Shown in pieces: positions 7,466 to 48,514 of a DNA stretch of 64,000 nt. Location: the NCBI RefSeq assembly GCF_009812055.1, contig NZ_WQNH01000010.1, forward strand, positions 1 through 64,000. The letters run 5' to 3'. Position 1 is the stretch's first letter; the number at the start of each line of letters is the position of its first letter. The position numbers and the translations under genes are program-made. The notes under the pieces are model-generated. The model did no database searches. It was not told the origin of the DNA and saw only the letters and a list, made by a program, of their open reading frames with translations. The DNA comes from Chelativorans xinjiangensis (GTDB lineage: Bacteria > Pseudomonadota > Alphaproteobacteria > Rhizobiales > Rhizobiaceae).

Positions 7466-8020
7466 CTAGTCCACCTGTCTGCCAGGGTCCAAAAATGTTT
7501 GAAGCACTGCTGGCGATACCGCAAACGGGTCAACTTTGACTTGCGAAAGCATAATTCCCAGCGCAGCAGTCGGCGTCTCGCCTTCGAGGAGCCCGATCCG
7601 TTCCTGTGTGAAGACCTCTGGTCCAGACATTAAGTTGGCGATGCCGATCACCTGACCGGCCACGACAACCGGTATGTTGGCCAGTGAGGATAAGCCTGCT
7701 CCTTTGAAGGCCACGAAATCCGGGAGCCAGCGGGCGATTTCGCTTTCGTTATTGGCGACGACCGGCATCCTTTCGGCAAACAAGCGCCGGAACCAGCGGT
7801 TGCTCTCGATGGTGTCGGCGTCGCCCAGTGGATATTGCGCCGTATCGTTCGAGTAAATCCGCACCAGGCACCCCCTGCGCCGATCGGGCGCGAGCACGGT
7901 TATCAGGCTTTCCCCGAGATGCGCGGTGATGCGCTTTGCAAAGACAGTAAACAGGGCTGTCTCACCCTTGCCTAACGCGTGCGCGATCTCGCGCGGTAGA
8001 GAAGGCACCGCCGGTGTCAT
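7466..8020 (-). CDS. Small stand-alone GAF-domain protein
   Basis: The 184-residue protein consists of one GAF domain with nothing fused to it. It contains the strand-helix pattern NESEIARWLPDFVAFKGAGLSSLANIPVVVAGQVIGIANLMSG, and lacks a kinase, GGDEF, HTH or transmembrane segment. It is homologous to the GAF protein at 48017-48514: compare NIPVVVAGQVIGIANL with NVPVVIGGEVAGTINC. It follows the M24 peptidase gene after three bases, so it belongs to the catabolic operon. GAF domains bind small ligands. A role as intracellular sensor or carrier of the substrate or product of the pathway is an inference. The redox Cys of the methionine-sulfoxide-reductase GAF family is absent. Confidence 0.8.
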   Translation of the reverse strand: MTPAVPSLPREIAHALGKGETALFTVFAKRITAHLGESLITVLAPDRRRGCLVRIYSNDTAQYPLGDADTIESNRWFRRLFAERMPVVANNESEIARWLPDFVAFKGAGLSSLANIPVVVAGQVIGIANLMSGPEVFTQERIGLLEGETPTAALGIMLSQVKVDPFAVSPAVLQTFLDPGRQVD

Positions 8021-8023
8021 TTT

Positions 8024-9139
8024 CTAACCACCAATCACGGTCAGTTGGCGTTCGAAACCGCTCAGCGAGCGGCAACCGTCCTCCGTTACGAGAACGTCGT
8101 CCTCGATCCGCACGCCGACCTCGCCCGGCTTGTAGAGCCCCGGTTCGATCGTGATCATCATGCCCGGCACCATTTCTTGGTGATTACCGATCATGACCTG
8201 CGGTGGCTCGTGCACGTCGAGGCCAAGCCCGTGTCCGGTCTTGTGCACGATCAACTCGGCGAACTCGGATTCGGCCAACCGGCCTGTTACAGCGTCATCG
8301 AGCGCATGCAGGCTCATGCCAGGCCGCACGGCGGCGCGCCCCACGGCATTGGCCTCGCGGACCGTTTCGTAGATCTCGCGATGCCGCTCGCTTACACGGC
8401 TGACGAAAAAAGTCCGCGTGATATCCGCGTTGTAGCCGCCCCACGCGGCGCCAAAATCGATGAGCAGCGAGTCGCCGGCGGCAAGCATCCGCTCCACGCT
8501 CGGCGTGCCGTGCGGATCGGCCGAGGCCGGCCCGCTCAGGACGATCGGATCGAAGGCCGCGCCATCGGCGCCGTTCTCCAGCATGGCCGCCAGCAGCTTG
8601 TTCTTGACGGCCACCTCGCTCATACCCGGCCGCACCCATTCGATCACCGCGGCGAGCGCGGCTTCGCTGATCTCGACAGCGCGCTGCATGACGGCGACTT
8701 CATCGTCGTCCTTGCACAGGCGCATTTGCGAGATTTCCGCTTGCGCGTCCACAACCATCACGTTGGCAAGGTTCCGGCGCAGCGCCTCGCTTTCGAAGAC
8801 ACGCATCCTTTGGCCTTCCACGCCCAGGCGCGCACCCCGGATCCTGTCGGCCATCCACACGAAGGCTTTCTCGTAACCGTCCGAGTCCTGCCAGTATTCG
8901 GTTTCGACGTCGGGTGCGAGCGCCTGCCAGCGTGCCCTTTCCAGTATCGGGATGATGGCGTGCTGTGCACCGTCGCGTGAAACGAAGAGAAGGGTCGGAC
9001 GCTCCATGAGATGGAAATGCGCACCAGTCAGATAATAGAGATTGGCGCCCGGGACCATCGCGACGCCGTCGAGCCCTGCCCTGTCCATCGAGTCGATAAG
9101 CCTGGCGAACCGGGCCGACCTGCGTTCCCCGTCAATCAT
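8024..9139 (-). CDS. M24-family metallopeptidase (aminopeptidase P-like)
   Basis: The 371-residue product has a creatinase-like N-terminal domain and a C-terminal pita-bread domain with all five metal ligands: Asp in LLIDFGAAW, Asp in YNADITRTF, His in TGHGLGLDVHEPP, Glu in ITIEPGLY and Glu in VRIEDDVLV. Family members hydrolyse Xaa-Pro peptides or related amide and N-acyl substrates (for example ectoine hydrolase DoeA). Lying between a GntR regulator and a GAF gene, and divergent from a hydantoinase operon, it probably opens or trims an amide intermediate of that pathway. The start ATG has AAGGA upstream. Confidence 0.85.
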   Translation of the reverse strand: MIDGERRSARFARLIDSMDRAGLDGVAMVPGANLYYLTGAHFHLMERPTLLFVSRDGAQHAIIPILERARWQALAPDVETEYWQDSDGYEKAFVWMADRIRGARLGVEGQRMRVFESEALRRNLANVMVVDAQAEISQMRLCKDDDEVAVMQRAVEISEAALAAVIEWVRPGMSEVAVKNKLLAAMLENGADGAAFDPIVLSGPASADPHGTPSVERMLAAGDSLLIDFGAAWGGYNADITRTFFVSRVSERHREIYETVREANAVGRAAVRPGMSLHALDDAVTGRLAESEFAELIVHKTGHGLGLDVHEPPQVMIGNHQEMVPGMMITIEPGLYKPGEVGVRIEDDVLVTEDGCRSLSGFERQLTVIGG

Positions 9140-9143: not shown

Positions 9144-9902
9144 TCATCCTTGTGAATCGCTTCCCAATGAAAATTTCGAGCCGACCTTCGGCTCCAGCGA
9201 GCGCTGCACTACGCGCAGTTCGGCCATCACGTGCTTGCTCGCCGAGCGTTCTGCAGCACCGGGATCGCCGGCCTCGATGGCATCGATCATCGCCTGATGC
9301 TGTTCGATGCAGTGTCGCTTCTCGGTGTCGTCAAACAGCGGATAGTAGTGCAGTAGATGCATCCGCCGGCCGTAATCCAGCGCAAGGCGGTAGAAATTGC
9401 CGAGGAACTCGTTGCGACCGGCATCCGACACCGCCCGGTGAAAGGCGAGGTCGGCCGCAACGATGGCGTGAACATCATCGCTCTCCAGCGCCGAGAGGTA
9501 ATCGCGCTGGCATTGGCGGATCGTCTCGAGCGTGTCTTCGTTGCGCATCTCGGCGGCCAGCCGGTGGGTCGCGCGCGAAAGAAGCATCACCGCATCCATA
9601 TATTCATGCGCATTGCTCATCGTGTGCGGGGTCACGATGGCGCTTCGATTGGGCAGGAAGGTTACGAGATCCTCGCGCGACAGCATGAGAAGCGCTTCTC
9701 GGATCGGCGTGCGCGACAGGCCAAACCGGTCCGCCAGCGCCACTTCGTCAAGCGCGGTGCCGGGTGCCATGCGCAGCTTCAGGATATCTTCCCGCAGTTC
9801 CTCGTAGACGGCGGTCGAACCGCGTCCGCGCCGCGGTGTCTTGCCGTTGGCATCCCGTTTCGGCTTGCCCCGCCCCTCGTCCGTCCGTGCTTCTGCAGCC
9901 AC
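9144..9902 (-). CDS. GntR-family regulator, FadR/FCD type
   Basis: An N-terminal winged helix (AVYEELREDILKLRMAPGTALDEVALADRFGLSRTPIREALLML) is followed by an FCD ligand-binding domain whose metal-binding pattern is seen in DLAFHRAV and later His residues. I chose the GTG at 9902 because GAGGAG lies seven bases upstream; a TTG at 9971 would add 23 residues with no support. The product is about 252 residues, with a basic N-terminal tail before the winged helix. FCD regulators usually repress catabolic operons and are released by an organic acid or amino-acid-like effector. The gene is divergent from the importer-hydantoinase operon, and a palindrome lies between them. Confidence 0.88.
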   Translation of the reverse strand: MAAEARTDEGRGKPKRDANGKTPRRGRGSTAVYEELREDILKLRMAPGTALDEVALADRFGLSRTPIREALLMLSREDLVTFLPNRSAIVTPHTMSNAHEYMDAVMLLSRATHRLAAEMRNEDTLETIRQCQRDYLSALESDDVHAIVAADLAFHRAVSDAGRNEFLGNFYRLALDYGRRMHLLHYYPLFDDTEKRHCIEQHQAMIDAIEAGDPGAAERSASKHVMAELRVVQRSLEPKVGSKFSLGSDSQG

Positions 9903-10001
9903 CCTCGTCTCCTCATAGCCGCTGATTGTGCATTCCCGATTCGGTCGGCAACCGTTCTGCACGGCTCGCAAACAATGTCAAAATTCTAATTGCATAAAGT
10001 T

Positions 10002-10067: not shown

Positions 10068-11072
10068 ATGCTGAAGAAGTTCCATATGTTGACGGCGGCC
10101 GCCGCGCTCGGACTTGCGGCCTTTACCAATACCGCCGCATCGCAGGATCAGGAGTGGAAGGTGGCCTTCTTCGCCTCTTCCGCCCAGAACGGTTTCAATC
10201 AGGCCGTCTACGAAGGAATCAAGAACAAGGCGCAGGAGCTCGGCAACGTCGAGACGGCGATCTATGACGGCCAGTTCGACGCCGCGCAGCAGTACAGCCA
10301 GATAGAAGACGTGCTCGCCAGCGGCGAGTTCGACGGCTTCATCGTCGTGCCAAACGATACGGTCGGTATTGCCGGTGTGGTCGAGATGGTTGCCGAGACG
10401 GGCAAGCCCCTCGCCACCGCTCTGTTCCCCATCGGGTCGGACCTGTCGCAGCTTGAGCCGCAGGTGCCGGGCGTGACGACCACCGTTGCCGGCCCGCCAG
10501 CCGACGGCGCGCGCAAGCAGGCCGAGGATGTGGTCGAATACTGTGCCGACAAGAACCCGTGCAACGTAGTCATCATCGTCGGCCAGCGCATCTTCCCCTT
10601 CGACAATCTGCGCTACGAAGCTTATCGCGAAGTGCTCGACCAGCACGACAACATTGAAGTGGTGGCGACCGGCGAAGGCAACTACGATCCCGACAAGTCG
10701 CTGACCGCGATGCAGGACATCCTGCAGGCCAACAGCAACGTCGACGTGGTCCTCACCAACGCCGACCAGCACCTCATCGGCGTGGAGATTGCGCTCGAGG
10801 CAGCCGGATACGACGTGCCGGAAGTCTACCTTTCCGGCGGCGGCGCGGCATCCGTGGCGGTCAATGCGATCCGAGAGGGTCGTTGGGACGTCACACTCGC
10901 CCATTTCCCCGTTTCCATGGGCGAGTATGCGCTTGACGCGGTTGTCCAGGCGCTGAAGGGCGAAACGCCCCCGAGCGTCATCAACATGGACGAGGTCGGC
11001 CCGGTTCCTCCGCTCGTCAATGCCAAGGTCCTCGAAGAGCACCCCGACTTCGAGGGCGAGTGGGCGCAGTAG
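10068..11072 (+). CDS. ABC transporter periplasmic binding protein, ribose/sugar type
   Basis: The 334-residue protein starts with a Sec signal peptide (MLKKFHMLTAAAALGLAAFTNTAAS) and has the type I periplasmic binding fold of the RbsB group: KVAFFASSAQNGFNQAVYEGI and later VDVVLTNADQHLIGV. It is preceded by a good ribosome site (AAGAGGAGAAC). It feeds the permease and double ATPase downstream. The hydantoinase A and B genes lie between binding protein and ATPase, so the ligand is likely their substrate, probably a cyclic amide or amino-acid derivative rather than a sugar. That assignment is inferred from context. Confidence 0.85.
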   Translation: MLKKFHMLTAAAALGLAAFTNTAASQDQEWKVAFFASSAQNGFNQAVYEGIKNKAQELGNVETAIYDGQFDAAQQYSQIEDVLASGEFDGFIVVPNDTVGIAGVVEMVAETGKPLATALFPIGSDLSQLEPQVPGVTTTVAGPPADGARKQAEDVVEYCADKNPCNVVIIVGQRIFPFDNLRYEAYREVLDQHDNIEVVATGEGNYDPDKSLTAMQDILQANSNVDVVLTNADQHLIGVEIALEAAGYDVPEVYLSGGGAASVAVNAIREGRWDVTLAHFPVSMGEYALDAVVQALKGETPPSVINMDEVGPVPPLVNAKVLEEHPDFEGEWAQ

Positions 11073-11143: not shown

Positions 11144-13165
11144 GTGGCGGGCAAGTCCTATCGCGTATCCGCGGACATTGGCGGAACATTCACCGATCTC
11201 GTATTTCAGGACGCCGAGACCGGCCTGTGCGAGGCGCACAAGGTCCTTTCCACGCCCGAAAACCCCGCTCTGGCGGTGATCGAGGGCCTTAAGGAGCACC
11301 TTCCCGAAGACGCCGAGACTGCCTTCTTCGTGCACGGCACGACCGTCGGGCTGAACGCGGTTCTCACCCGGCGAGGCGCCCGCGTCGCCCTCTTGACGAC
11401 ACGGAACTACCGCGACGTCTATACGATCCAGGGCAACGACCGCGGCGAAATCTTCTCCATCCACTGGCGCAAGCCGAAGCCGCTCGCCGAAATTCCCGAC
11501 ACCTTCACGGTCAACGAGCGCATCAACGCTAAGGGCGAAGTCGAAACGTCGCTCGACACCGGTGAGTTGGACGCGCTGGTCGAGGCGGTCGGGCGCAGAG
11601 GCTACGAAGCCATCGCCATCTGCCTCCTCTTTGCCTTCATGAATCCGGCCCATGAACTGGCCGCTGAAGCTTATCTGAGAGAGAGGCTTCCAGGTATTTC
11701 CATCACGCTTTCGCACAAGGTCTCGCCAGAGTGGCGAGAATATGCGCGCACATCGACCACGGTGATGGACGCCTATGCCGCGCCCGTGGTGAGGCGCTAT
11801 TTGGACACGCTGGTCGACAATCTCGCCTCAACGCTTCCTGATGGCGGTCAGCTCCACGTCATGAAGTCCAATGGCGGTGCCATGACGGCGGCGGCGGCCA
11901 CGGAGAACCCACTTCAGACGCTACTCTCCGGGCCGGTCGGCGGCACCATCGGCGGCCGCAAAATTGCAGAGACCGTCGGCAGGCCCAACCTCATCTGTGT
12001 CGACATGGGCGGCACGTCCTTCGATGCCAGCCTCATCATCGACGGCGAGCCGTCTTCTTCCAACGAGGCTGAACTGGAAGGATTACCGATCCAGATGTCG
12101 GTGGTCGACATCCACGTGATTGGCGCTGGCGGCGGCTCCATTGCCTGGCAGGAAGCCGGCGCCGTGCGGGTCGGACCTCAATCGGCAGGTTCGGTGCCAG
12201 GCCCCGCCTGCTATGGCCGCGGCGGCACCGAACCGACTGTGAGTGACGCCAACCTCGTTCTGGGACGCCTCGACTCGTCCAACTTCGCCGGCGGCTCCAT
12301 GAGCCTCGATCGCGACAAGGCAAAGGCGGCCGTAAGTGAGCTGGGGCGGGATTTCGGTTTGTCGACCGAAGAAATGGCGCAGGGGATAATCGACATCATC
12401 AACGCCAAGATGGCCGACGCGATCCGCACCATCACGATTCGGCGCGGCATCGATCCGCGCGATTTCGCACTGGTTGCCTATGGCGGCGCGAGCCCGGCCC
12501 AGGCGGCCGCGCTCGCCGCGCAGCTCGACATCACGGAAGTGATCGTCCCGGTCATGCCGGGCGCGTTCTCGGCCTGGGGCATGCTGCACACTGACGTGCG
12601 CCACGACTTCAAGATGACCTACTACGGTTTCTGGGACCAGATCGACAGCAAGGACCTAGCCGAGAAGTTCAGCCAGCTCGAGGTGGAAGGTCGCGACTAT
12701 CTGCACAAGGAGGGCTTCCACGACGCCGGCGTCTCCTTCGAGCGCTTCGCCGACTTCCGCTATCACGGCCAGGAATACGTGCTGACGATCCCGGTGCCGG
12801 GTGGCGATATCGACATGGCTGCCGTGCGCACGTCCTTCGATGAGGCCTACGACCGCCAATATGGCCATTCGAGCCCGGAGGCCGCAGTGGAGGTCGCCAA
12901 TTTGCGCGTCGCCGCGCTCGGCAAGCTCGAGCGCCCCGGCATTCCCGACCCCATGGTCGAGCCGCAATCAGTCCCGGGCAGCCGCAAGGTCTATTTCGGC
13001 GGCACCGAGCACGATACGGCCATATTGCAGCGTGCCGCCCTTCCCGTCGGGGAGATGGTTGAGGGACCGGCGATTATCGAGGAGCCGACGGCGACGACGC
13101 TCGTGCCGGTCGGCTGGCGAACCGAGGTGATCGCCGGTGGACACCTTCTGCTTTCGCGCGGCTGA
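11144..13165 (+). CDS. Hydantoinase/oxoprolinase family protein, subunit A type
   Basis: The 673-residue product begins with the ATP-binding motif SADIGGTFTDLVF and has FFVHGTTVGLNAVLTRRGARVALLTT. A second actin-like phosphate motif follows in VDMGGTSFDASL, then GAGGGSIAW. These are the signatures of HyuA, the ATP-using subunit of N-methylhydantoinase, 5-oxoprolinase and acetone/acetophenone carboxylases. GTG at 11144 is the start: GGAGG lies six bases upstream, and the overlapping ATG at 11142 is in another frame. It works with the B subunit encoded 14 bases downstream. The exact ring or carbonyl substrate cannot be read from sequence. Confidence 0.88.
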   Translation: MAGKSYRVSADIGGTFTDLVFQDAETGLCEAHKVLSTPENPALAVIEGLKEHLPEDAETAFFVHGTTVGLNAVLTRRGARVALLTTRNYRDVYTIQGNDRGEIFSIHWRKPKPLAEIPDTFTVNERINAKGEVETSLDTGELDALVEAVGRRGYEAIAICLLFAFMNPAHELAAEAYLRERLPGISITLSHKVSPEWREYARTSTTVMDAYAAPVVRRYLDTLVDNLASTLPDGGQLHVMKSNGGAMTAAAATENPLQTLLSGPVGGTIGGRKIAETVGRPNLICVDMGGTSFDASLIIDGEPSSSNEAELEGLPIQMSVVDIHVIGAGGGSIAWQEAGAVRVGPQSAGSVPGPACYGRGGTEPTVSDANLVLGRLDSSNFAGGSMSLDRDKAKAAVSELGRDFGLSTEEMAQGIIDIINAKMADAIRTITIRRGIDPRDFALVAYGGASPAQAAALAAQLDITEVIVPVMPGAFSAWGMLHTDVRHDFKMTYYGFWDQIDSKDLAEKFSQLEVEGRDYLHKEGFHDAGVSFERFADFRYHGQEYVLTIPVPGGDIDMAAVRTSFDEAYDRQYGHSSPEAAVEVANLRVAALGKLERPGIPDPMVEPQSVPGSRKVYFGGTEHDTAILQRAALPVGEMVEGPAIIEEPTATTLVPVGWRTEVIAGGHLLLSRG

Positions 13166-13179: not shown

Positions 13180-14904
13180 ATGACCAAGGTAAAGGCCGAT
13201 CCGATCACCACCGAGGTGGTGCGCAACTTCGTCATCTCCTGCGCGCAGGACATGAACGCCGCCCTTTGGCGCTCCGCCTTCTCGGCGATCATCTACGAGG
13301 GCCGCGACAGCGCCGTCGCACTGCTAGACGAGCACGGCAACATGCTCGGCCAGTCGACCGGCGTGCCGCTCTTCGTCGGCGCCATCGATGCCTGCGTCAA
13401 GCTCGTGCTGGAGCGCTACGGCGACGACATCCATCCCGGCGACATCTTCATCCTCAACGACTCCTATCTCCAGGGCACCCATCTCCACGACATCACCGCC
13501 ATCGGCCCCATGTTCTACAAGGGCGAGCTTGTGGGTTTCGGTGCCGCCCGGGCGCACTGGCAGGACATCGGCGCCATCGATCCGGGCTCCACAATGGGCT
13601 CCACCTCGATCTTTCACGAGGGCCTGCGTCTCGGACCGACGCGCATTGTCAGCCGCTTCAAACCCATCCCCGAATGGTACGATCTCTTGACCCGCAATAC
13701 GCGGCTGAAGGACATGACGATTGGCGATCTCAACGCGCAGATCACCTCGATCCGCACCGGCGAGCGGCGCCTTGGCCAGATACTCGACCGCATCGGCCCC
13801 GACGTCTACCGCGCCGCCTGCGCTGACATCTTCGAGCAGGCACGGCTGCTCGACCGCGAGGCGATCGGCGCACTGAAGAATGGCACCTACTACCGCGAGG
13901 GCTATCTCGATGACGACGGTGTCGGCACCGAGCCGGTGAAGGTGGCTTTGCGTCTGACCATCGAAGGCGAGAAGATGATCATCGACCTGGAAGGCTCGTC
14001 CGGCCCCGTCGAAGGCTCGATCAATTGCGGCGCGGTGCAGACACAGTCGCTGCTGCGCTTGGCCTACAAGACGATGATCAACCCCGACCGGGCGATCACC
14101 GGCGGCTCCTTTTCGACCATGGAAGTCCGCATCCCCGAAAAATGCATGTTCAACGCCAAGGAGCCGGCCGCCTGTGAATGGTACTTCACCGGCCTTGGCC
14201 TGCTCGCCGATCTCATGATTTCCTGTCTCAGCGAAGCCATGCCCGAAAAGGCCACGGCCGCGCACTACGGCGATTCCATGGTCGCGGCATTCTTCGACAT
14301 GGACCCTGACCGTGGCCAGTGGATCTCGGTCGAGCCGACGGCCGGCGGTTGGGGCGGCACCGTGGGAGGCGATGGCGAGAGCGCGTTGATCAACCTCGTC
14401 AATGGCGGCTTCAGGAACCTTCCCGCCGAGGTCTACGAGACCAAGTTCCCCGTGCGCGTCGAGGAATTCTCCTTGCGCACGGATTCGGGCGGTGCGGGGC
14501 GCTGGCGCGGCGGCTGCGGCGTCGTACGCAGCTATCGCCTTCTTGAGGATTGCTTTGCCGCATTGTGGTTCGAGCGCTCCAAGACGCCGGCTTGGGGCAT
14601 CATGGGCGGCGCCGAGGGCAAAGGGCCGGACAACGATATCCTGCTTCCCGACGGCACCGTCGAGAAGCCGCTCAAGATGCGTGCCCGGCATTTCCCGAAG
14701 GGAACGCTGGTCGTTACACGCACCGGCGGTGGTGGCGGATACGGCAATCCCCGGGCAAGGCCGGCGGAAGAAGTGCTGGCCGACGTGGCCAGCGGTCTCG
14801 TGTCGCGCGACGTGGCTTGGGAGGTCTACGGTGTGGCCGTCGGCGACGACTACACAATCGACCAGTCCCGTACCGAGCCCAGATCCAAGCAGGTCTACGC
14901 GTGA
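13180..14904 (+). CDS. Hydantoinase/oxoprolinase family protein, subunit B type
   Basis: The 574-residue product starts DPITTEVVRNFVIS and carries family landmarks: SAIIYEGRDSAVALLDEHGN, GDIFILNDSYLQGTHLHD (metal-site region), a conserved LEGSSGPVEGSINC segment, EPTAGGWGG, and the closing TRTGGGGGYGNP. HyuB forms the complex with HyuA that cleaves or carboxylates the phosphorylated substrate. An AGAGGAGAG ribosome site precedes the ATG. Length and motifs indicate an intact gene. In this operon it lies between HyuA and the importer ATPase, tying uptake and catabolism together. Confidence 0.88.
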   Translation: MTKVKADPITTEVVRNFVISCAQDMNAALWRSAFSAIIYEGRDSAVALLDEHGNMLGQSTGVPLFVGAIDACVKLVLERYGDDIHPGDIFILNDSYLQGTHLHDITAIGPMFYKGELVGFGAARAHWQDIGAIDPGSTMGSTSIFHEGLRLGPTRIVSRFKPIPEWYDLLTRNTRLKDMTIGDLNAQITSIRTGERRLGQILDRIGPDVYRAACADIFEQARLLDREAIGALKNGTYYREGYLDDDGVGTEPVKVALRLTIEGEKMIIDLEGSSGPVEGSINCGAVQTQSLLRLAYKTMINPDRAITGGSFSTMEVRIPEKCMFNAKEPAACEWYFTGLGLLADLMISCLSEAMPEKATAAHYGDSMVAAFFDMDPDRGQWISVEPTAGGWGGTVGGDGESALINLVNGGFRNLPAEVYETKFPVRVEEFSLRTDSGGAGRWRGGCGVVRSYRLLEDCFAALWFERSKTPAWGIMGGAEGKGPDNDILLPDGTVEKPLKMRARHFPKGTLVVTRTGGGGGYGNPRARPAEEVLADVASGLVSRDVAWEVYGVAVGDDYTIDQSRTEPRSKQVYA

Positions 14905-16573: not shown

Positions 16574-17550
16574 GCATGAGCGGAAACGCTGCCGCGATGA
16601 AGGAAAGGTCCGGTCTCGGTGCAGCCTCGGTGGCCCGACTCTTCCAGAGCTACGCGGTCGCCATCATGATCCTGGTCCTGATCGTGCTCCTCAGCTTCCT
16701 AAGCGATTCCTTTCTGACGGTCAGAAACCTCGTCAATATTCTCAACCAGAACACGCCACTCGCCATCATGGCGGCGGCCATGACGTTGGTGATCATCAGC
16801 GGTGGATTCGACCTGTCGGTGGCGGCGATTTTTGCCGTCGGCAGTGTTGTGGCGGCCACGCTTGCCCTGCACGTCCATCCGTTGGCTGGCCTGCTGGCGG
16901 CTCCGCTTGTCGGCATGGCGCTGGGCTTCATCAACGGCATCACGATCACGGCGTTGAGAATCCATTCATTTCTGGCCACACTTGCCACAGGCCTCGTTTA
17001 TCGCGGCATCGCGATCCTGATTACGGGCGGCACGCTGGTGCCGGTGCGCATAGACGCATTCACCTGGCTCGGGCGCGAGCGGATTGGCCCGATTTACATT
17101 GCCGTCATCGTGCTGATCGTATTCGCCATCCTGCTGACGATTCTGCTCAACCGCTCCACGCTCGGGCGCAAAATCCTCGCTGTCGGTGGCAATGAGGAGG
17201 CGGCCATCTTGTCGGGCATCCGCACCCGCCGCATCAAGATCATTGCCTTTTCGATCAACGGGCTGGCTGCCGGGCTTGCCGCCGCGATCGCCACCTCGCG
17301 CATCTCGATGGGTCAGGCGACAGCCGGCATGGGCATGGAGCTGGAGGCGATTGCCGCCGTCATCATCGGCGGCACCAGCATCTATGGCGGCCAGGGCGCC
17401 ATATGGCGTTCGATTGCGGGCGTAATGATGCTTGCGCTTGTCAGCAACGGCTTCAACATCCTCAACGCCGATCCCTTCTACAAGGATCTGGCAACCGGGC
17501 TGATCATCGTGGCTGCGGTCGCCATAAGCGCCAGCGGGAGGAGGCGCTAG
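16570..17550 (+). CDS. Sugar-type ABC transporter permease (RbsC-like)
   Basis: About 326 residues with eight to ten hydrophobic segments and the CUT2 permease hallmarks NILNQNTPLAIMAAAMTLVII, SGGFDLSVAAIFAVGSVVAA, GGNEEAAILSGI (coupling loop) and IIGGTSIYGGQGAIWRSIAG. ATG 16570 overlaps the ATPase stop (ATGA) and follows a purine-rich AAAGGGAAAT. It forms the inner-membrane channel for the compound captured by the binding protein at 10068. It is the last gene of the operon; a hairpin follows at 17608. Confidence 0.9.
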   Translation: MSMSGNAAAMKERSGLGAASVARLFQSYAVAIMILVLIVLLSFLSDSFLTVRNLVNILNQNTPLAIMAAAMTLVIISGGFDLSVAAIFAVGSVVAATLALHVHPLAGLLAAPLVGMALGFINGITITALRIHSFLATLATGLVYRGIAILITGGTLVPVRIDAFTWLGRERIGPIYIAVIVLIVFAILLTILLNRSTLGRKILAVGGNEEAAILSGIRTRRIKIIAFSINGLAAGLAAAIATSRISMGQATAGMGMELEAIAAVIIGGTSIYGGQGAIWRSIAGVMMLALVSNGFNILNADPFYKDLATGLIIVAAVAISASGRRR

Positions 17551-36199: not shown

Positions 36200-36215
36200 T
36201 CGATCCGATCCTTCG

Positions 36216-36239: not shown

Positions 36240-36270
36240 TAATCCTTCAAGCGAATACCGGGAAGCGGCG

Positions 36271-40708: not shown

Positions 40709-42283
40709 TCAACACAGATCTTCGGCCCAACCGCCGCCATTTGCAGTATGGATCAACACCTCATCGTTCGGCTCCAACGGCACGTCCGATGCGAATGCGT
40801 AGTCCTCGCGCTCGCCGTTGGACCTGATGACCGAGAGGCCATTGGTGCCGCCGTTCTCGCCGCCGGCCAGACCCCAGGCTGGCTGGCGGTTGCGGCTGTA
40901 ACCGGTCGAGAGCACTGCGGGAGCGCGAACGCGGTAGCTAAGTGACAGGCCTTTGCCGCCGCAATGCCGGCCACGACCTTCATCGGTTTCGTTGAGCCGC
41001 TTGAATCCGACATCGATGCCATAACGCGCTTCGCAGATCTCGACCGGGCAATTGAAGGTCTCGCCGTGGCTTGCCGAATACATGGCATCGAGCCCGTCGC
41101 GCTCGCAGGTGGCGCCCCAGCCGCCCATTTGCGGCTCGACCATGGTGTAGCGGCGGCCGGTATCGGGATGGTCGCCAGCGATCACCGTGCCGCAGATCGA
41201 GGCGAAATGGCCGGCCGGCAGCCGACCGGGCATGGCGCGTGCCATGCATTGCCACAGCATGTCGTAGAGCCTTATGCGGGTCTCGAAATAGTAGCCGTGC
41301 GGCGCGTTGCCGGTGGCATGGAAGACGGTGCCGGGTACGGTGATCACCTCCAGAAGACGGAAGGAGCCGCCATTGGCAAAGAGGGTGGGATCGGTGAGCG
41401 CCTTGAAGATCATCTGCGCCGAGATCACCGCGCCGTCGCGGCTGGTGTTATAGGGCGCGCACCGTTGCTTGGGATTGCCGGTCAGGTCCACCGTGAAGCG
41501 GTCGGCCGAAACGGTAATCGAGGCGCGCCACAGAGCGCCGTCGTCCTGCTCCTCCTCTATCTGGTAGCTACCGGCCGGAAGGGTGGCGAGGCCGGCAAGG
41601 GCGCGCCGCTCCCCTTCCTCGAAGAGTGATTCCAGAGCGTTGTTGTAGGAGGAAAGGCCGTAGGTTTCTACGATCTGCTTCACGCGCGACTCCGCCTTGC
41701 GGCCTGCCGCCACCTGTGCCCAGAGATCGCCTTCGACGAAATCGGGCAGGCGCGAATTGGCGGCGATGATCTCGAAGACGGAGCGGATTGGCTTGCCCGC
41801 TTGGAAGAGCCGTACGGCCGGCAGGCGCAAGCCCTCCTGGAAGATTTCAGTAACGTCGACGGCCATGGAACCCGCCGTCTTGCCGCCGACATCGTTCCAG
41901 TGGGCGATGGACGCCGTCCAGGCGACGAGCTCGCCCGCCGCGAAGACGGGCAGCGCGATCACCACGTCGTTGAGATGCGTCACACCGCCGAAATAGGGAT
42001 CGTTGGTGACGAAGACGTCGCCCGCGCAGATCGTCTCGAGGCCGTTCAGTTCGATGATGCGCTTGACCGCCTTGTCGAGCACGCCGACGAAGGTGGGGAT
42101 GCCGGCGCCGGAACTCACCAACTCACCATGCGCGTCGGTAATGCCCGTGCCGACATCGAGCACCTCGTAGATGATCGGGCTCATCGCCGTCTTCTTCAGG
42201 ACCGCGAACATCTCGTCGGCGGCCGCCACCATGCTTGCCTGGATGACGGTAGCGGTGATGGGATCGTCGGCGCGCGTGTCCAT
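40709..42283 (-). CDS. Hydantoinase/oxoprolinase subunit B type, second copy in the operon
   Basis: The 524-residue protein has the HyuB landmarks DPITATVIQASMVAAADEMFAVLKKTAMSPIIYEVLDVGTGITD, GDVFVTNDPYFGGVTHLNDVVI and EPQMGGWGATCERDG. The C-terminus is shorter and ends HTANGGGWAED rather than the usual GGGGxGDP. It is clearly paralogous to the B subunit at 44271 (shared ADEMFAxxKKxAMSxIIYEVLDxGTGI). No second A subunit is present, so it must either share the HyuA at 45945 or act on its own. It is the last gene of the operon, four bases after the M24 peptidase gene. Confidence 0.88.
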   Translation of the reverse strand: MDTRADDPITATVIQASMVAAADEMFAVLKKTAMSPIIYEVLDVGTGITDAHGELVSSGAGIPTFVGVLDKAVKRIIELNGLETICAGDVFVTNDPYFGGVTHLNDVVIALPVFAAGELVAWTASIAHWNDVGGKTAGSMAVDVTEIFQEGLRLPAVRLFQAGKPIRSVFEIIAANSRLPDFVEGDLWAQVAAGRKAESRVKQIVETYGLSSYNNALESLFEEGERRALAGLATLPAGSYQIEEEQDDGALWRASITVSADRFTVDLTGNPKQRCAPYNTSRDGAVISAQMIFKALTDPTLFANGGSFRLLEVITVPGTVFHATGNAPHGYYFETRIRLYDMLWQCMARAMPGRLPAGHFASICGTVIAGDHPDTGRRYTMVEPQMGGWGATCERDGLDAMYSASHGETFNCPVEICEARYGIDVGFKRLNETDEGRGRHCGGKGLSLSYRVRAPAVLSTGYSRNRQPAWGLAGGENGGTNGLSVIRSNGEREDYAFASDVPLEPNDEVLIHTANGGGWAEDLC

Positions 42284-42287: not shown

Positions 42288-43385
42288 CTAGGCCCCGCTC
42301 ACATGCAGATCGCGCGGCAGCGAGGAGAAGATTTCCGGCCCGTCGGCGCGCAGGATGACGATTTCTTCCAACCGGATGCCGAAGCGGCGGGGGATGTAGA
42401 TGCCGGGCTCTATGGAGAACACCATGCCCTCTTCCAGCACCGTCTCGGAGGTGGCGGTGATATAGGGCGGCTCGTGGCCGTCTATGCCCAGGCCATGGCC
42501 GGTGCGATGGACGAAATATTCGCCGTAGCCGGCGTCCGAAATCACCCTGCGGGCAGGAGCGTCGACCTCCTTCGCCTTCACGCCGGGGCGCGCGGCGGCA
42601 AGTGCCGCTTCCACGGCGCGCTCGACGATGGTGTGCACCTGGCCGTAGCCCTCGGGCGGGCGCCCGACGGCGGCCATGCGAGTGATGTCGCTCGGCAGGC
42701 CGCCCTTGCGGGCGCCGATGTCGATGACGACCGCGTCGCCCTCGGCCAGCTTGCGTTCCCCGGTCTGGTGGTGCGGAAAGGCGCCGTTGGGGCCGCTGCC
42801 GACGATGGTGAAAAGAGGAATGGCGCCTTCGGAGGCGAAATGGTCGCGGATGACCGTCGCCAGCTCCTTCTCGCTCATGCCGGGCTTGATGGCGGCGAAG
42901 GCTTTCTGCAGGGCCCTGTCAGCAACGGCGGCACTTGTCTTGAGCCGGGCGAATTCGCTCTCGCCCTTGCGCATGCGCAGCGCACCCACCGTCTCGCCGG
43001 TAAAGGTATGCTTCGCATCCGGCAGCGCGCCGAGCAGCCGCAGGGCGAAATCGGCGCGCATCGTCTCGTCAAGCACGACGGATTTCGCCTTGTCGGCGCC
43101 GATTGCTCCAAGCGCCGCAGCAAGAGCGGCATCCGGGCGCTCGTCGTCGCTCCAGGTATGGAAGGCGATATCCGTGTTCTCGCGCGAGCCTTCCGCATTG
43201 AGTGCGGGCATGAGGAAACATTCGCCGGCTTCCGAAACGAGCAGGAGGCACGGCCGCTCGTCGGCATGCGGGTGAAAGCCGACCAGCCATTGCATGTGCG
43301 AGCCGGGGCCCAGCGCCACCAGATCAGTCTCGGTCTGCCGCATCTTCTCGCGCAGCGCCGCCAGTCGGGTTGCAGTTTCAGTCAT
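42288..43385 (-). CDS. M24-family metallopeptidase (aminopeptidase P-like)
   Basis: The 365-residue enzyme has all metal ligands: Asp in VVIDIGARKGG, Asp in LPSDITRM, His in HRTGHGLGIDGHEPP, Glu in FSIEPGIY and Glu in IRLEEIVIL. GSGPNGAFPHHQTGERKL is the usual His-containing substrate loop. It is paralogous to the M24 enzyme of locus 1. ATG 43385 has GAGGA upstream; the longer frame to 43568 overlaps the racemase gene and is not coding. It probably hydrolyses an amide or dipeptide intermediate produced or fed by the hydantoinases. Confidence 0.88.
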   Translation of the reverse strand: MTETATRLAALREKMRQTETDLVALGPGSHMQWLVGFHPHADERPCLLLVSEAGECFLMPALNAEGSRENTDIAFHTWSDDERPDAALAAALGAIGADKAKSVVLDETMRADFALRLLGALPDAKHTFTGETVGALRMRKGESEFARLKTSAAVADRALQKAFAAIKPGMSEKELATVIRDHFASEGAIPLFTIVGSGPNGAFPHHQTGERKLAEGDAVVIDIGARKGGLPSDITRMAAVGRPPEGYGQVHTIVERAVEAALAAARPGVKAKEVDAPARRVISDAGYGEYFVHRTGHGLGIDGHEPPYITATSETVLEEGMVFSIEPGIYIPRRFGIRLEEIVILRADGPEIFSSLPRDLHVSGA

Positions 43386-43417
43386 GGGTGTTTCCTCGTG
43401 TTTTTTGCTCGATGGGG

Positions 43418-44254
43418 TCACGCCGCCTGCCGCGCGGGGCCCGGCGCCTCGGCCGGAACGACGATGCGGTTTCCGAAGATCTCGCCCTCGTCGAAGCCGC
43501 CGATGTGGGCGATCTCGTCCTCCGGCGGCGCCTCGCAGGACCATTTGCGGCTCGGCTTCCAGCCGCACTGGCGCTTCAGCACCGCGGCATATTCGGCGCG
43601 CTTGAGGGTGGCGATGGAAGGATCGATCACGGGAACGCCAAGGCGCGCCTCCACATCGCGGTAGAAGCCGACCTCCATGGTGCAGCCTAGAATGAGGGCT
43701 TCGGCGAAATCCTCCTCCACCGCCTTGCGGCCGGCCTCCAGAAGCCGGCGTTCGGTCTCTGCATGGTCGGCCTGGAATTCCGTCACGCCGAGCTCAACAT
43801 GGTAGAAGCCCGCCAGGCGATGCTCATGGCCGTGCTCGCGTACGGTCGCCGCCATCTGGTGCACCCATTTGCGCCGTCCGACGATGATGCCGAAGCGGTT
43901 GGAAAGGCTCGCCGCGATTTCGCAGGACGCCACGCAGGGCGCCGTCACGATCATGTCGCCGGAAATCTCGCGCGCGTCGTGCAGCGCCGTGTCGTAGAAG
44001 CAGCCGATGGCGAAGGCGTCGAAGTCTTCCTTCGCCGCCTGGCGTGCAGCGCGGATGATGCCGCGCGTGACCATCGCCTCATAGGAGCGGAACTCGATAT
44101 GGCCGAAGCGGCCGTTCGCCTCCGGCAGCGAGGTGACGTGCACCTCTGTGCCCGGCAGCTTGTGGTCGCGCGCCATGGCGGCGAAGACGTCGTCATGGGC
44201 GGCCGAGCCCGCGACGGGGCTGAAATACATGATTTTCAGGGGTTGTTCGGTCAT
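43418..44254 (-). CDS. Aspartate/glutamate/hydantoin racemase-family protein
   Basis: The 278-residue protein has the two-Cys arrangement of the superfamily: Cys in DAFAIGCFYDTALHDAR and Cys in ALILGCTMEVGFY, with the start MTEQPLKIMYFSPVAG typical of hydantoin-racemase-like members. These enzymes racemise or epimerise a carbon next to a carboxylate or carbonyl using the two Cys as acid and base. In an operon with hydantoinase subunits, it would let both enantiomers of the substrate be used. The C-terminus (CGWKPSRKWSCEAPPEDE) is longer than usual. ATG 44254 has GGGAGG upstream. Confidence 0.85.
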   Translation of the reverse strand: MTEQPLKIMYFSPVAGSAAHDDVFAAMARDHKLPGTEVHVTSLPEANGRFGHIEFRSYEAMVTRGIIRAARQAAKEDFDAFAIGCFYDTALHDAREISGDMIVTAPCVASCEIAASLSNRFGIIVGRRKWVHQMAATVREHGHEHRLAGFYHVELGVTEFQADHAETERRLLEAGRKAVEEDFAEALILGCTMEVGFYRDVEARLGVPVIDPSIATLKRAEYAAVLKRQCGWKPSRKWSCEAPPEDEIAHIGGFDEGEIFGNRIVVPAEAPGPARQAA

Positions 44255-44270: not shown

Positions 44271-45935
44271 CTAGCCGGCAAAGCCGTAGATCTCCTTTGC
44301 CCGTTCGGGCGTGATGAAGCCGTTGCGGACATCCTCCCTGACCTTCTCCGGATCGCGCGCCTTCGGGTCGCCGATGCCGCCGCCCGTGCCCGTGACGATG
44401 CGGATGACGTCGTCCTTGTTCACGGTCAGGCTGGAGACGAAGGAATAGCGCTCTGTGCCGCCCTCGCGGCGGATGACCTCGACATAGTTGGGCGAACCCT
44501 CGCGGCCGCCCTCGAGCGCCCAGGGCAGGACCTTGGAGCGCGTATAGCCCGCCGTCAGGAACGAGCCATCGACGCGGATGCGGTAGTCAAGGCGGATGCC
44601 GTGGCCGCCGGTCCATTGACCCTCCCCGCCGGGCGCCGGATTGAGCTCCATGCGGTCGACGAAGAGGCCATTGCGCGCTTCGGAGATCTCGGCCGGCGTG
44701 TTGAAGGTCTCGCCGTGGAAGCCGGAGAAGATGGCGCTGTTGCCGTCGCGGCCTTCGCTGGCGCCCCAGCCGCCGAGCTGCGGCTCGATGATGGTGTAGT
44801 GGCGGCCCGTATCGGGATGGGTGCCGCCGATGAAGGTGCCGCAGATGGAGGAGAAATGGCCGGCCGCCAGCCGCTCGGACGCATGGTTCGCAAGGCAGCG
44901 CCACATCAGGTCGTAGACCCTGACTTCCGTCTCGAAATAGAAGCCGATGGGCGCCGGTTCCCTGGCGTGGAAGACCGAGCCCTCGCGGGTCAGCAACCTG
45001 ATCGGCCGGAACGAGCCTTCGTTGCAGGGCGAATAGGGGTCGGTCAGCGACTTGAAGATCATCTGGGCGCAGACCATCACGCCGTCGCGGCTGGTGTTGG
45101 TGGGGCCTGAGTCCTGGTCGGGGTTGTCGCGAAGGTCGACGACGAACTCCGTGTCGGAAATCGTGATCTTCACATTGTAGATACGGCCGTCATCCTGTTC
45201 CTCCGAAAGTGCGAAGGTGCCGTGCGGCAGCCTGGAAAGCTCCGTCAGCGACACTTTCTCGCCGAAATCCATGAAGGAGGCCATGGCCCGCTCGAAGGTG
45301 TCGATGCCGTATTTCCCCGCCAGCTCGGCCAGCCTTTTGGCGCCGATACGCACCGAAGCGATGGCGGCCCAGACATCGCCTTCCAGGAAATCGGGCATGC
45401 GCGAATTGGCCTTCATGATCTCGAAGACGGGCTTTATGGGCTCGCCTTCGGAGATCAGCTTGATAGCCGGCAGGCGCAGGCCTTCCTGGAAGATCTCCGT
45501 CGCCTCGCCGGACAGCGAGCCCGGCGCGATGCCGCCGATGTCGGAATTGTGGGCGATGTTGGCCGTCCAGGCGATGATGCGGTCGCCGACGAAGACCGGC
45601 ATGGCGACGACGATGTCGTTCAGATGCGTCACGCCGCCTTGATAGGGATCGTTGGTGGTGAAGACGTCGCCCGGCTGGATGTCGCCCGGGTGATCGAACT
45701 TCTCCACGATCACCTTCACCGCCTTGTCGAGGACGCCGATGAAGGCGGGGATGCCGGCACCCGAGCTTGCCAGCCGGCCCTTCGCATCGAGGATACCGGT
45801 GCCCATGTCCAGCACCTCGTAGATGATGGAGCTCATGGCGGCCTTCTTCATCGCCGCGAACATCTCGTCGGCGGTCGCCTGCAGCGAGTTCTGGATAATC
45901 TCAAGCGTGATGGGATCGTTTGTCCTGTCGCTCAT
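44271..45935 (-). CDS. Hydantoinase/oxoprolinase subunit B type
   Basis: The 554-residue HyuB has DPITLEIIQNSLQATADEMFAAMKKAAMSSIIYEVLDMGTG, GDVFTTNDPYQGGVTHLNDIVVAMP, VDLRDNPDQDSGPTNTSRDG, EPQLGGWGASEGRDG and the full closing VTGTGGGIGDPKARDPEKVREDVRNGFIT. It lies nine bases after HyuA and is its natural partner. Compared with the B subunit of locus 1, the metal-site segment is of the GGVTHLND rather than QGTHLHD type, so the two loci may differ in substrate. Confidence 0.9.
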   Translation of the reverse strand: MSDRTNDPITLEIIQNSLQATADEMFAAMKKAAMSSIIYEVLDMGTGILDAKGRLASSGAGIPAFIGVLDKAVKVIVEKFDHPGDIQPGDVFTTNDPYQGGVTHLNDIVVAMPVFVGDRIIAWTANIAHNSDIGGIAPGSLSGEATEIFQEGLRLPAIKLISEGEPIKPVFEIMKANSRMPDFLEGDVWAAIASVRIGAKRLAELAGKYGIDTFERAMASFMDFGEKVSLTELSRLPHGTFALSEEQDDGRIYNVKITISDTEFVVDLRDNPDQDSGPTNTSRDGVMVCAQMIFKSLTDPYSPCNEGSFRPIRLLTREGSVFHAREPAPIGFYFETEVRVYDLMWRCLANHASERLAAGHFSSICGTFIGGTHPDTGRHYTIIEPQLGGWGASEGRDGNSAIFSGFHGETFNTPAEISEARNGLFVDRMELNPAPGGEGQWTGGHGIRLDYRIRVDGSFLTAGYTRSKVLPWALEGGREGSPNYVEVIRREGGTERYSFVSSLTVNKDDVIRIVTGTGGGIGDPKARDPEKVREDVRNGFITPERAKEIYGFAG

Positions 45936-45944: not shown

Positions 45945-48020
45945 CTATTTGAGTTCGATGCGGATATTGCCGTAGCCGTCGACTTCCACCGCGTTGCCAG
46001 GATGGACGACGATCGTGCTGCCGGGATCTTCGACGATTGCCGGGCCTGTGAATTTCATGCCGGGCTCCAGCTTCTCGCCGTCATAGATCGCCGCCTCGTG
46101 GATGCCTTCCAGCGCGTAGTCCACCTTGCGGCGACCCTTGAGCACCGCGTCAGCCGCCGCGCCGGTTGGCTCTCGCCTGGTCATCGTCAGCTTGCCGACT
46201 TCGGCCGAAGCGACGAGATGGATGCCCACCATTTCTACCGGCGCGTCGAGCCGGTAGGTGTATTCGCGCTCGTAGGTCTCGTGGAAGGCGGCCTCGATTG
46301 CCGGCAGTCGGTCGTCGGTGATCTTGCCGCTGTCCAACAGCACTTCCGTCGTGTGCTCCTGGTTCTGGTAGCGGAACTTGCCGTAGCGCAGGAACTTCAC
46401 CTTCGAGGCGTCGATGCCCTCGGCTTCGAACTGCCTGATTGCCCGCGCCTCGGTTTCGGCGAAGACGCCTTCGATGCCTTCGGCCGCGCCCGGCTTCAGG
46501 TCGGCCAGGCGCGTGACGAAGTAGTCGCGCCTGAGGTCCGACATCATCATGCCCCAGGCGGAAAAGACGGAGGCCGCAGCCGGCACCACGACTTTCTTCA
46601 CGCCCAGTTCCTGCGCGAGCGCTACCGCATGCATCGCTCCGCCGCCGCCGAAGGCGACCAGCGTGAAGTCGCGCGGGTCGTGGCCCCGGTTGAGTGAGAC
46701 GAGCTTCAGCGCGTTGACCATGTTGTTGTTGGCGATGCGGATGATGCCGCGCGCGGCTTCGTCTGCATCCACGCCGAGCTTCTCGCCTACCGCCTTAATG
46801 GCCTTCTCCGCCGCCGCCATGTCGGCCTCGATCTCGCCGCCGCAGAAATAGTCGCGGTTGATGCGGCCGAGCCAGAGATTGGCGTCGGTGGTGGTGGCCT
46901 CCGTGCCGCCGCGACCGTAGGCGGCCGGTCCAGGCACCGCGCCGGCCGATTGCGGGCCGACATGCAGCTTGCCGAACGCGTCGACCCAGGCGATGGAGCC
47001 GCCGCCATTGCCGATCTCGACGAGATCGACCACGGGCACCATGATCGGATAGCCGGCGGTGGTGCGGTCGCGCTCGATCCAGTAGTCGGTCATGATCTTG
47101 ACCTGCCCGTCCTCGATCAGCGAGCACTTGGCGGTCGTGCCGCCGATGTCGAGCGCGAGCACATCGGGCTCGTCGATCAGCTTGCCGAGCTCGGCAGCAC
47201 CCCAGAATCCCGACGCCGGGCCCGATTCCACCATGGTGATGGGGATCTGCGAGACGGCCTCCAGCGAGTCGACGCCGCAGTTCGATTGCATGATGTAGGG
47301 GCTTTTCCCGAAGCCCTTTTCCTTGAGCCCGCCCGCAAGTCGCGAGAGGTAGCGCTCGGCGATGGGCTGGACATAGGCCGAAAGGACGGCCGTGTTGGTG
47401 CGCTCATATTCGCGCCATTCGCGGGTGATCTGGTGCGAGGCGACTACCGCCGCCTCCGGCCACAGCTCCCTGACCTCCGCAAGGGTGGCTTGCTCATGCG
47501 CCGGATTGGCGTAGGAATGGAGGAAGCTGACGGCGACAGCCTGAACGCCGTCGGCCTTGAAGTCCTCGAGGATCGCCGGCAGAGCGGAGAGATCGAGCGG
47601 CGTCATCTCCTCGCCGTGATAGTTTATGCGGCCCGGCAGCTCGCGGCGCAGATAGCGCGGCACGAAGGGCTTGGGCTTCTCGTAGTGCAGGTTGAAAAAG
47701 TCCGGTCGGTTGCCGCGCGCGATCTCCAGCGTGTCGCGGAAGCCCTCGGTGGTGATCAGCCCCACCTTGACGCCCTTTCGCTCGGTCAGCGCGTTGATGA
47801 CGACGGTCGTGCCATGCGCCAGGAAATCGACCGAGGCGGGATCGACGCCGCCCTTTTCCAGGACGTTAAGCACGCCCTCCTCGAAATTCGGCGGGGTGGT
47901 GTCGGATTTGGCGGTTACGATGCGGGCGATGCCCGAATCCGAGCCGGTCTCGAAGCAGACCAGATCGGTGAACGTCCCGCCGACGTCGGTTGCCACGCGG
48001 ATTGTCTTTTCGGCCATCAT
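45945..48020 (-). CDS. Hydantoinase/oxoprolinase subunit A type
   Basis: The 691-residue HyuA has the N-terminal ATP site VATDVGGTFTDLVCFE, DFLAHGTTVVINALTERKGVKVGLITT, the second ATP motif LALDIGGTTAKCSLIEDG and GNGGGSIAWVDAFGKLHVGPQSAGA. The C-terminal half holds VSLNRGHDPRDFTLVAFGGGGAMHA. The start ATGATG overlaps the GAF gene stop; 48020 gives the ATGA overlap and 48017 is the alternative. It should phosphorylate the carbonyl of a cyclic amide or ketone-like substrate for the B subunit. Confidence 0.9.
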   Translation of the reverse strand: MMAEKTIRVATDVGGTFTDLVCFETGSDSGIARIVTAKSDTTPPNFEEGVLNVLEKGGVDPASVDFLAHGTTVVINALTERKGVKVGLITTEGFRDTLEIARGNRPDFFNLHYEKPKPFVPRYLRRELPGRINYHGEEMTPLDLSALPAILEDFKADGVQAVAVSFLHSYANPAHEQATLAEVRELWPEAAVVASHQITREWREYERTNTAVLSAYVQPIAERYLSRLAGGLKEKGFGKSPYIMQSNCGVDSLEAVSQIPITMVESGPASGFWGAAELGKLIDEPDVLALDIGGTTAKCSLIEDGQVKIMTDYWIERDRTTAGYPIMVPVVDLVEIGNGGGSIAWVDAFGKLHVGPQSAGAVPGPAAYGRGGTEATTTDANLWLGRINRDYFCGGEIEADMAAAEKAIKAVGEKLGVDADEAARGIIRIANNNMVNALKLVSLNRGHDPRDFTLVAFGGGGAMHAVALAQELGVKKVVVPAAASVFSAWGMMMSDLRRDYFVTRLADLKPGAAEGIEGVFAETEARAIRQFEAEGIDASKVKFLRYGKFRYQNQEHTTEVLLDSGKITDDRLPAIEAAFHETYEREYTYRLDAPVEMVGIHLVASAEVGKLTMTRREPTGAAADAVLKGRRKVDYALEGIHEAAIYDGEKLEPGMKFTGPAIVEDPGSTIVVHPGNAVEVDGYGNIRIELK

Positions 48021-48514
48021 GCGGCTCCCATGTGCTGGTCCAGTTCCTTCAAGAGAAAGCAGGCGGCGCCGGGCAGTTTCAGCCTCTCGGCGGCCTCGAT
48101 CTTCTCTTGCGTGTAAAAGCCTTCCTCGTGCAGGCAGTTGATCGTGCCCGCCACTTCGCCTCCGATGACCACGGGGACGTTGATCACCGACGCGCAGCCC
48201 AGCGACTGGATGAGTTCGTGGTCGTAGAAGACTTCGGCGATGCCTGCGATGTCGTTGGCGACGAAGATCTGTTTCTCCTCAAGCACCTGCCGCGCCCAGT
48301 CAGTGGTGTTGACGGGCTTGGTGCCCGAGACGGGATAGGCGTTCGGCATGTTGGAGAAGAAACGTTCGGCGACGCCCGAAGCGGCATCGAAGCGCATCAG
48401 CGTGAAGAGCTTCACGCCGACGGTGTCCGCCGCGAGCTTCCACAGCGCCTCGTAGGTCGCCTGTGGCTGCCGGCACTTCGCCATCGCCTCGACGAACTGG
48501 GCGTAATCAGGCAT
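48017..48514 (-). CDS. Small stand-alone GAF-domain protein, second copy
   Basis: The 165-residue protein starts MPDYAQFVEAMAKCRQPQATYEALWKLAADTVGVKLFTLMRFD and is one GAF domain. Its core FVANDIAGIAEVFYDHELIQSLGCASVINVPVVIGGEVAGTINCLHEEGFYT parallels the GAF protein at 7466. It has two Cys in the core (GCAS and INCL) that the first copy lacks, so redox chemistry is not a shared property. It overlaps DppF by eight bases and HyuA by four, a very tight coupling that implies a constant ratio to HyuA. Effector sensing, or allosteric control of the hydantoinase, is possible but unproven. Confidence 0.82.
   Translation of the reverse strand: MPDYAQFVEAMAKCRQPQATYEALWKLAADTVGVKLFTLMRFDAASGVAERFFSNMPNAYPVSGTKPVNTTDWARQVLEEKQIFVANDIAGIAEVFYDHELIQSLGCASVINVPVVIGGEVAGTINCLHEEGFYTQEKIEAAERLKLPGAACFLLKELDQHMGAA

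Follow-up and report, generated by a model that had tools for sequence, protein, structure and literature searches.

A family of stand-alone GAF proteins encoded beside importer and amide or peptide hydrolase genes, with two members in hydantoinase-bearing loci of Chelativorans xinjiangensis

Two loci with a stand-alone GAF protein

We analyzed the first 64,000 nucleotides of a contig of Chelativorans xinjiangensis (assembly GCF_009812055.1, contig NZ_WQNH01000010.1; this whole stretch is referred to as the window). An initial annotation of the window had pointed to two small one-domain GAF proteins, here called GAF_L1 (locus 1) and GAF_L4 (locus 4), each encoded in a locus that also contains the hydantoinase-type proteins HyuA and HyuB and an M24 metallopeptidase, and had suggested that they are dedicated partners of the hydantoinase. 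The gene assignments behind this suggestion are supported by Pfam throughout (Table 1). HyuA, HyuB and M24 occur beside a stand-alone GAF protein in both loci, while the importer is ribose-type (Rbs) in locus 1 and peptide-type (Dpp) in locus 4, and the regulators are of GntR-FCD and XRE-cupin type, respectively. The two GAF proteins are homologous, with 31% identity over 108 residues (E = 9e-18).

The overlap of the GAF_L4 gene with both of its neighbors is confirmed: it starts 8 nt within DppF, with the ATG at 48514, and its TGA shares 4 nt with the ATG of HyuA. We took the ATG at 48514 as the start, whereas the list of open reading frames (ORFs) has a further-upstream TTG. Locus 1 is arranged differently. 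A minus-strand GntR-M24-GAF unit, in which the GAF gene is last, diverges from a plus-strand RbsB-HyuA-HyuB-RbsA-RbsC unit, so that GAF_L1 is not co-transcribed with HyuA of the same locus. Since the two loci share only 37% identity in HyuA and 32% in M24, and have unlike importers and regulators, they are, as judged from their sequences, old paralogues and not the result of a recent duplication.

Table 1. Features of the two GAF-containing loci in the window
Feature	Coordinates	Strand	Evidence and remarks
GAF_L1, stand-alone GAF protein, 184 aa	7466..8020	-	Pfam GAF_2 32.7 bits, GAF 24 bits; family profile 159.7 bits; AlphaFold2 model pLDDT 85.0
M24 metallopeptidase, 371 aa, 3 nt upstream of GAF_L1	8024..9139	-	Pfam Peptidase_M24 220.5 bits, Creatinase_N
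GntR-FCD regulator	9144..9971	-	Pfam GntR, FCD
Ribose-type substrate-binding protein (RbsB), divergent from the GAF unit	10068..11072	+	Pfam Peripla_BP_4 146 bits
HyuA, locus 1	11144..13165	+	Pfam Hydantoinase_A 317 bits
HyuB, locus 1	13180..14904	+	Pfam Hydantoinase_B 518 bits
Sugar-type ABC ATPase (RbsA-like)	14927..16573	+	Pfam ABC_tran, two stretches; true start possibly downstream of the listed GTG
Sugar-type ABC permease (RbsC-like)	16519..17550	+	Pfam BPD_transp_2 131.7 bits; true start uncertain
Second HyuB, locus 4	40709..42283	-	Pfam Hydantoinase_B 471 bits
M24 metallopeptidase, locus 4	42288..43388	-	Pfam Peptidase_M24 206 bits
Asp/Glu/hydantoin racemase, locus 4	43418..44254	-	Pfam Asp_Glu_race 97.5 bits
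HyuB, locus 4	44271..45935	-	Pfam Hydantoinase_B 498.8 bits
HyuA, locus 4	45945..48020	-	Pfam Hydantoinase_A 300 bits
GAF_L4, stand-alone GAF protein, 165 aa	48017..48514	-	Pfam GAF 34.4 bits; family profile 239.2 bits; AlphaFold2 model pLDDT 91.4, pTM 0.88
Peptide-type ABC ATPases DppF and DppD	48507..50242	-	Pfam ABC_tran, oligo_HPY
Peptide-type ABC permeases DppC and DppB	50224..52082	-	Pfam BPD_transp_1
DppA substrate-binding protein	52143..53738	-	Pfam SBP_bac_5 228 bits
XRE-cupin regulator	53742..54431	-	Pfam HTH_3, Cupin_2

A GAF-only protein family

On sequence grounds, both proteins are members of one unnamed GAF-only family. They score above the Pfam gathering cut-offs for GAF (PF01590) and GAF_2 (PF13185), the only domains that Pfam reports in them at E 0.01, in agreement with the earlier statement that neither carries an output domain; some more distant members fall below one or both cut-offs. 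A profile made from an alignment of 31 members (A1), with genome searches cut at E = 1e-12 (weakest listed match 62.8 bits), identified members at three taxonomic levels: the order (89 of 397 genomes), the class (24 of 385) and the phylum (17 of 398), the window's own genome being included each time. None of the 31 profile members matches any NCBIfam model better than E 0.049. Among plasmids, 88 records match GAF_L4, and those of the listed matches that are annotated mostly bear the name "GAF domain-containing protein".

The genome of the window encodes four members, with no fifth at E 0.1. The two outside the window lie in different surroundings: one (L021) follows a Dpp importer and is flanked by IclR, GcvT-like and TRAP genes (labels by similarity and by eye), and the other (L022) has a Liv permease on one side and an amidohydrolase on the opposite side. 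HyuB is absent from both contigs, and no HyuA or HyuB label was found within 9 kb of either gene.

We collected 154 family ORFs from the window and from fetched loci (designated by L numbers) and grouped them into 115 clusters at 80% identity. Duplicates (L012 and L013 from one contig; L015 and L174 alike) are counted among the 154 ORFs and were merged by the clustering. L012 (1–9474) and L013 represent the end of a contig of a Rhizobium metagenome-assembled genome with an inverted Dpp-GAF-HyuA copy, perhaps an assembly artefact.

No output domain follows the GAF domain in the 154 ORFs, which end at most 34 residues after it. An open frame of more than 60 residues precedes the GAF domain in 41 ORFs; 23 of these frames overlap a labeled neighboring gene and 18 do not. 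A Pfam scan of the latter gave GAF only or nothing in 17 cases, and the remaining one, L135, is a fusion, for which reason a hidden output domain was rejected for the family. In L135 (4168–5580), a metallo-β-lactamase-fold protein is fused in frame ahead of the GAF domain, adjoining a γ-glutamyltransferase (GGT) gene; metallo-β-lactamase and GGT genes occur together near the GAF gene in four other clusters. A member from Devosia neptuniae (L218, 1486–2159) is split over two frames, indicating a damaged gene or a sequencing error.

Predicted fold and conserved residues

AlphaFold2 predicts a GAF fold with confidence for both window proteins (Table 1). The best Foldseek match of GAF_L4 is a cAMP-bound GAF domain (5w10), and that of GAF_L1 is a domain of a sigma-54 regulator (3k2n). 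The 50 matches listed have TM scores mostly of 0.5–0.7 by query length, at sequence identities of ∼10–20%, and a sequence search of solved structures gave nothing below E 0.28.

Across the 115 clusters, Arg51 is invariant, and Asp98 (113), Tyr60 (112) and Trp73 (104) are nearly so. Asn112 and Asn126 are each kept in 108 of 114 clusters; neither is kept in two solved proteins aligned with the family. We infer from their location on strands 2, 5 and 6 and the neighboring loops that the conserved residues probably line the ligand face of the domain. An arginine and an aspartate accompanied by aromatic residues would, by analogy with amino-acid sensors, suit an amino-acid-like ligand. The locus-1-type proteins have lost Gly64 and Lys66. 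No cysteine is conserved: at most 72 of 115 clusters have Cys in any one column, and GAF_L1 has a single Cys.

Genomic context

Genomic context was assessed for the 97 clusters with full flanks, the other 18 being dropped. Neighbors were labeled with phmmer (E 1e-10), with queries from the window, from the L021 and L022 loci and from loci of five to six relatives, and 20 equal-sized stretches located 150 kb away on the same contigs served as controls. The order search contributed 78 of the 115 clusters and the phylum search 15; the context counts exclude class-search matches. An importer (Dpp, Rbs, Liv or TRAP) lies within 9 kb of the GAF gene in 80 of the 97 clusters, a hydrolase in 76, both in 64 and either in 92. 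Three of the controls contain an importer, and none contains a hydrolase, a combination of the two, or HyuA or HyuB, although a Fisher comparison with them overstates independence, as clusters defined at 80% identity are still related.

HyuA or HyuB is present within 9 kb in 35 of the 97 clusters and both in 33. The enrichment near hydantoinase genes, on which the initial annotation had staked its proposal, is therefore beyond chance, given 0 of 20 in the controls and an expectation of ∼1.8 HyuB per 100 windows of this kind (205 HyuB genes in the 205 Mb of 45 GAF-bearing genomes). The complete set of HyuA, HyuB and M24 is found in only 18 clusters, and 62 clusters have no Hyu gene within this distance; M24 occurs without Hyu in 24. 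Among these 62 clusters, 41 have M24, an amidohydrolase, GGT, S58 or S15, 47 have an importer, and five have neither. Viewed from the hydantoinase side, only 23 of the 205 HyuB genes have a family member within 9 kb, HyuB is absent from seven of the 45 genomes, and six of the nine HyuB genes in the window's genome are on contigs without a member. Thus, the GAF-Hyu link is real, but it is one among several hydrolase links. The part of the earlier proposal that concerned association stands, while exclusivity does not.

Within 400 nt upstream on the same strand, the nearest labeled gene encodes an ABC ATPase in 34 of the 115 clusters, a Liv permease in nine and DctM in seven, and no gene is labeled in 36; HyuA is the next labeled same-strand gene downstream in 21. 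The locus-4 gene order recurs in Qingshengfaniella and in a record named Roseateles sp. XES5, and a Liv-GAF-amidohydrolase order is found on pAt of Agrobacterium tumefaciens Ach5 and in Agrobacterium sp. S7/73. In Antarctobacter, an unannotated member adjoins a Dpp importer with an XRE regulator. GGT accompanies the family in several forms: two genes upstream in Paraburkholderia, where the GAF gene (555 nt) is annotated "histidine kinase"; together with a TctC-type receptor and M20 in Pseudoroseomonas; and as a short remnant next to a transposase, followed by the GAF gene, in Sulfitobacter. The plasmid copy of Rhizobium sp. T1470 is less clear: transposase genes precede it by 2.4 kb, an MFS transporter follows at 1.1 kb and a Xaa-Pro peptidase lies ∼5 kb away, with unannotated gaps between them.

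In a Rhizobiaceae relative (L005, 9001–18489), a locus-4-type operon and a locus-1-type GAF gene, the latter preceded by the end of an M24 gene, meet tail to tail. The window differs in that GAF_L1 is located ∼33 kb from the corresponding end of locus 4.

Hydantoinase operons without a GAF gene

We also read seven Hyu loci, hand-picked from lists of plasmid hits to HyuA relatives, with the family profile. A GAF gene was found in three (L218, L219 and L223); those of L218 and L219 are unannotated, indicating that annotation alone misses some members. No match was obtained in 6–7 kb on either side of HyuA in L217 (Ketogulonicigenium), L220 (Mycetohabitans), L221 (Thermus) and L222 (Ensifer). As L217 and L221 carry a Dpp importer, M24, HyuAB and a racemase, all without a GAF gene, this gene is accessory, not core, to Hyu operons. 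In L217, an XRE-cupin-type gene (6408–7001) occupies the slot between DppF and HyuA that is held by the GAF gene in relatives.

The GAF protein also diverges faster than nearly all of the proteins encoded around it. Across ten operons of the locus-4 type, which include near-identical pairs, identity to the window copy is 51–72% for GAF and 80–89% for HyuA. GAF has the lowest identity of all in six operons; in the other four, only the second-HyuB query is lower, probably by cross-matching to the first HyuB.

In a quick tree of the 115 clusters, in which 50 of 112 inner branches are weak, contexts form clades, yet Hyu-linked and other members interleave, with at least 10 changes. Importer labels change at least 31 times and hydrolase labels at least 30 times, "none" being counted as a state, in counts that are blind to gain versus loss. 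A single clade of Hyu-linked proteins was rejected (p-AU 5e-63). GAF_L1 is on a long branch, and a topology that places it with the clade sharing its gene order (L185, L106, L161, L162, L165 and L186) was not rejected (p-AU 0.21).

Proposed role and alternatives

The initial annotation had offered three roles for the GAF protein: sensing the substrate, activating HyuA or carrying an intermediate. The latter two are weakened by the GAF-less operons L217 and L221, and substrate sensing survives. We tentatively favor, at somewhat less than an even chance, a soluble ligand sensor that is accessory to importer and amide or peptide hydrolase modules and tunes the importer or the hydrolase by contact. 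In such a mechanism, the GAF pocket would bind a substrate or product that is small, charged and amide- or amino-acid-like, held by Arg51, Tyr60, Trp73, Asp98, Asn112 and Asn126. The ligand-bound protein might then touch the importer or hydrolase directly and tune it allosterically, by which uptake would be matched to hydrolysis. HyuA/HyuB would be one hydrolase option beside M24, amidohydrolase, GGT and S58. A shared ligand type is favored because the partners vary in kind while the putative pocket stays constant, and the same six residues are predicted to bind a related ligand in all contexts.

Several points weigh against this reading. For a regulator that acts by contact, it is a difficulty that no one protein partner recurs in every context; TRAP importers have no ABC ATPase, and seven of the nine GGT-linked clusters have no labeled importer within 9 kb. 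The pocket is placed by position in the fold, not by model coordinates, and the invariant arginine and the aspartate could equally be catalytic. The ligand may differ between clades, as the locus-1-type proteins have lost two otherwise kept residues. Finally, the label queries come from GAF loci and so favor these over the controls, while other importers and hydrolases are missed.

The lack of a common partner is accommodated by the main rival, a GAF-fold enzyme whose substrate is a small molecule shared by the scavenging of amides and peptides, such as a by-product of import or hydrolysis. An enzyme of this kind would need no protein partner and could be shuffled among operons, consistent with partner classes that change while Arg51, Asp98, Tyr60, Asn112 and Asn126 stay. 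We nevertheless consider it rather unlikely, since the GAF protein evolves faster than nearly all of its operon mates, the GAF-less operons L217 and L221 keep their other genes, and no cysteine of the kind found in the known GAF-fold enzyme is conserved. Also possible, if rather unlikely, is a wider formulation that covers either a new enzyme or a common amide or amino-acid sensor: a partner-independent GAF-fold protein that answers one shared chemical need and has been recruited beside at least five hydrolase families and four importer classes.

The frequent position behind an ABC ATPase, and the prevalence of importers near the gene, would fit a subunit that regulates the importer, above all that ATPase, by inhibiting transport in a substrate-dependent manner. 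This is improbable, as neither TRAP importers nor most GGT-linked clusters provide an ABC importer, GAF_L1 adjoins M24 and not the importer, and the importer classes differ, making a single interface unlikely.

We regard a dedicated partner of HyuA/HyuB, whether it senses the substrate, activates HyuA or carries an intermediate, as very improbable, despite the enrichment described above and the position of HyuA directly downstream in part of the clusters. Most clusters lack Hyu genes, some GAF-bearing genomes lack HyuB, and few HyuB genes are near a family member; in the window's genome, two members are on HyuB-free contigs and most HyuB genes on GAF-free ones, and L217, L220, L221 and L222 have HyuAB with no GAF match in the 6–7 kb to either side. 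An exclusive hydantoinase partner is largely refuted by the 62 Hyu-free clusters and by the four of seven Hyu loci without GAF. Least credible of all is a passenger or moonlighting protein placed by hitch-hiking: although the loci sit in recombining islands, five clusters have neither labeled importer nor hydrolase and one Rhizobium plasmid copy is near transposase genes, the same DppF-HyuA slot is held across genera and the partners with which the protein is associated change many times on the tree.

That a small protein accompanies importers and amide hydrolases of different families in about a fifth of the sampled genomes of the order suggests that a step or control of lactam, hydantoin and peptide breakdown has been overlooked.

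Relation to known systems

The family resembles described GAF domains (PF01590, PF13185) in fold, Pfam match and its single domain of ligand-binding type. It differs in the lack of an output domain, L135 apart, in its own set of conserved polar residues and in the linkage to importers and amide hydrolases. The closest solved folds among the matches listed are GAF domains of histidine kinases, sigma-54 regulators, phosphodiesterases and Lcd1 (5w10, 3k2n, 3o5y). Such domains are mostly input parts of larger proteins, and an output domain such as the kinase, cyclase or HTH fused to the GAF input of signaling proteins is not found in the family. No Pfam match to an IclR-type effector domain was obtained for GAF_L1 or GAF_L4 at E 0.01.

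Free methionine-R-sulfoxide reductase, whose catalytic cysteines are conserved, is likewise a GAF-fold protein. The window family differs from it in having no conserved cysteine, no NCBIfam match and an importer/hydrolase context, and identity with this enzyme was rejected on the first two points. The reductase binds a small molecule, and the GAF fold of MsrC has been argued to act simply as an enzyme (PMC3206869).

The HyuA and HyuB proteins of both loci belong by Pfam to the operon type that includes caprolactamase CapAB. Caprolactamase is the best NCBIfam match of the Hyu proteins scanned (both HyuA and the locus-1 HyuB), but the scores (506 and 546 bits for HyuA, 254 bits for the locus-1 HyuB) are far below the cut-off of 1000 bits. 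To our knowledge, a GAF protein is not part of the described hydantoinase or oxoprolinase systems. In titles and the beginnings of abstracts, literature searches combining GAF with hydantoinase, hydantoin, oxoprolinase, GGT or importer/amidohydrolase gave no such partner, and searches for stand-alone or single GAF proteins gave no such family among the matches listed. With no NCBIfam model and no record in these searches, the family is apparently undescribed.

Other features of the window

The window is a catabolic island, as judged from the genes for thiolase, SDR, a TRAP transporter (DctQ and DctM in one frame), a tricarboxylate transporter (TctA and TctC) and CoA-transferase at 26748–37473. 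A further peptide importer locus (21529–25211) has two ABC ATPase domains in a single open frame, a fusion of the Dpp/Opp D and F type. It is followed by a lyase of the fumarase/ADSL type, and no member of the GAF family is encoded there.

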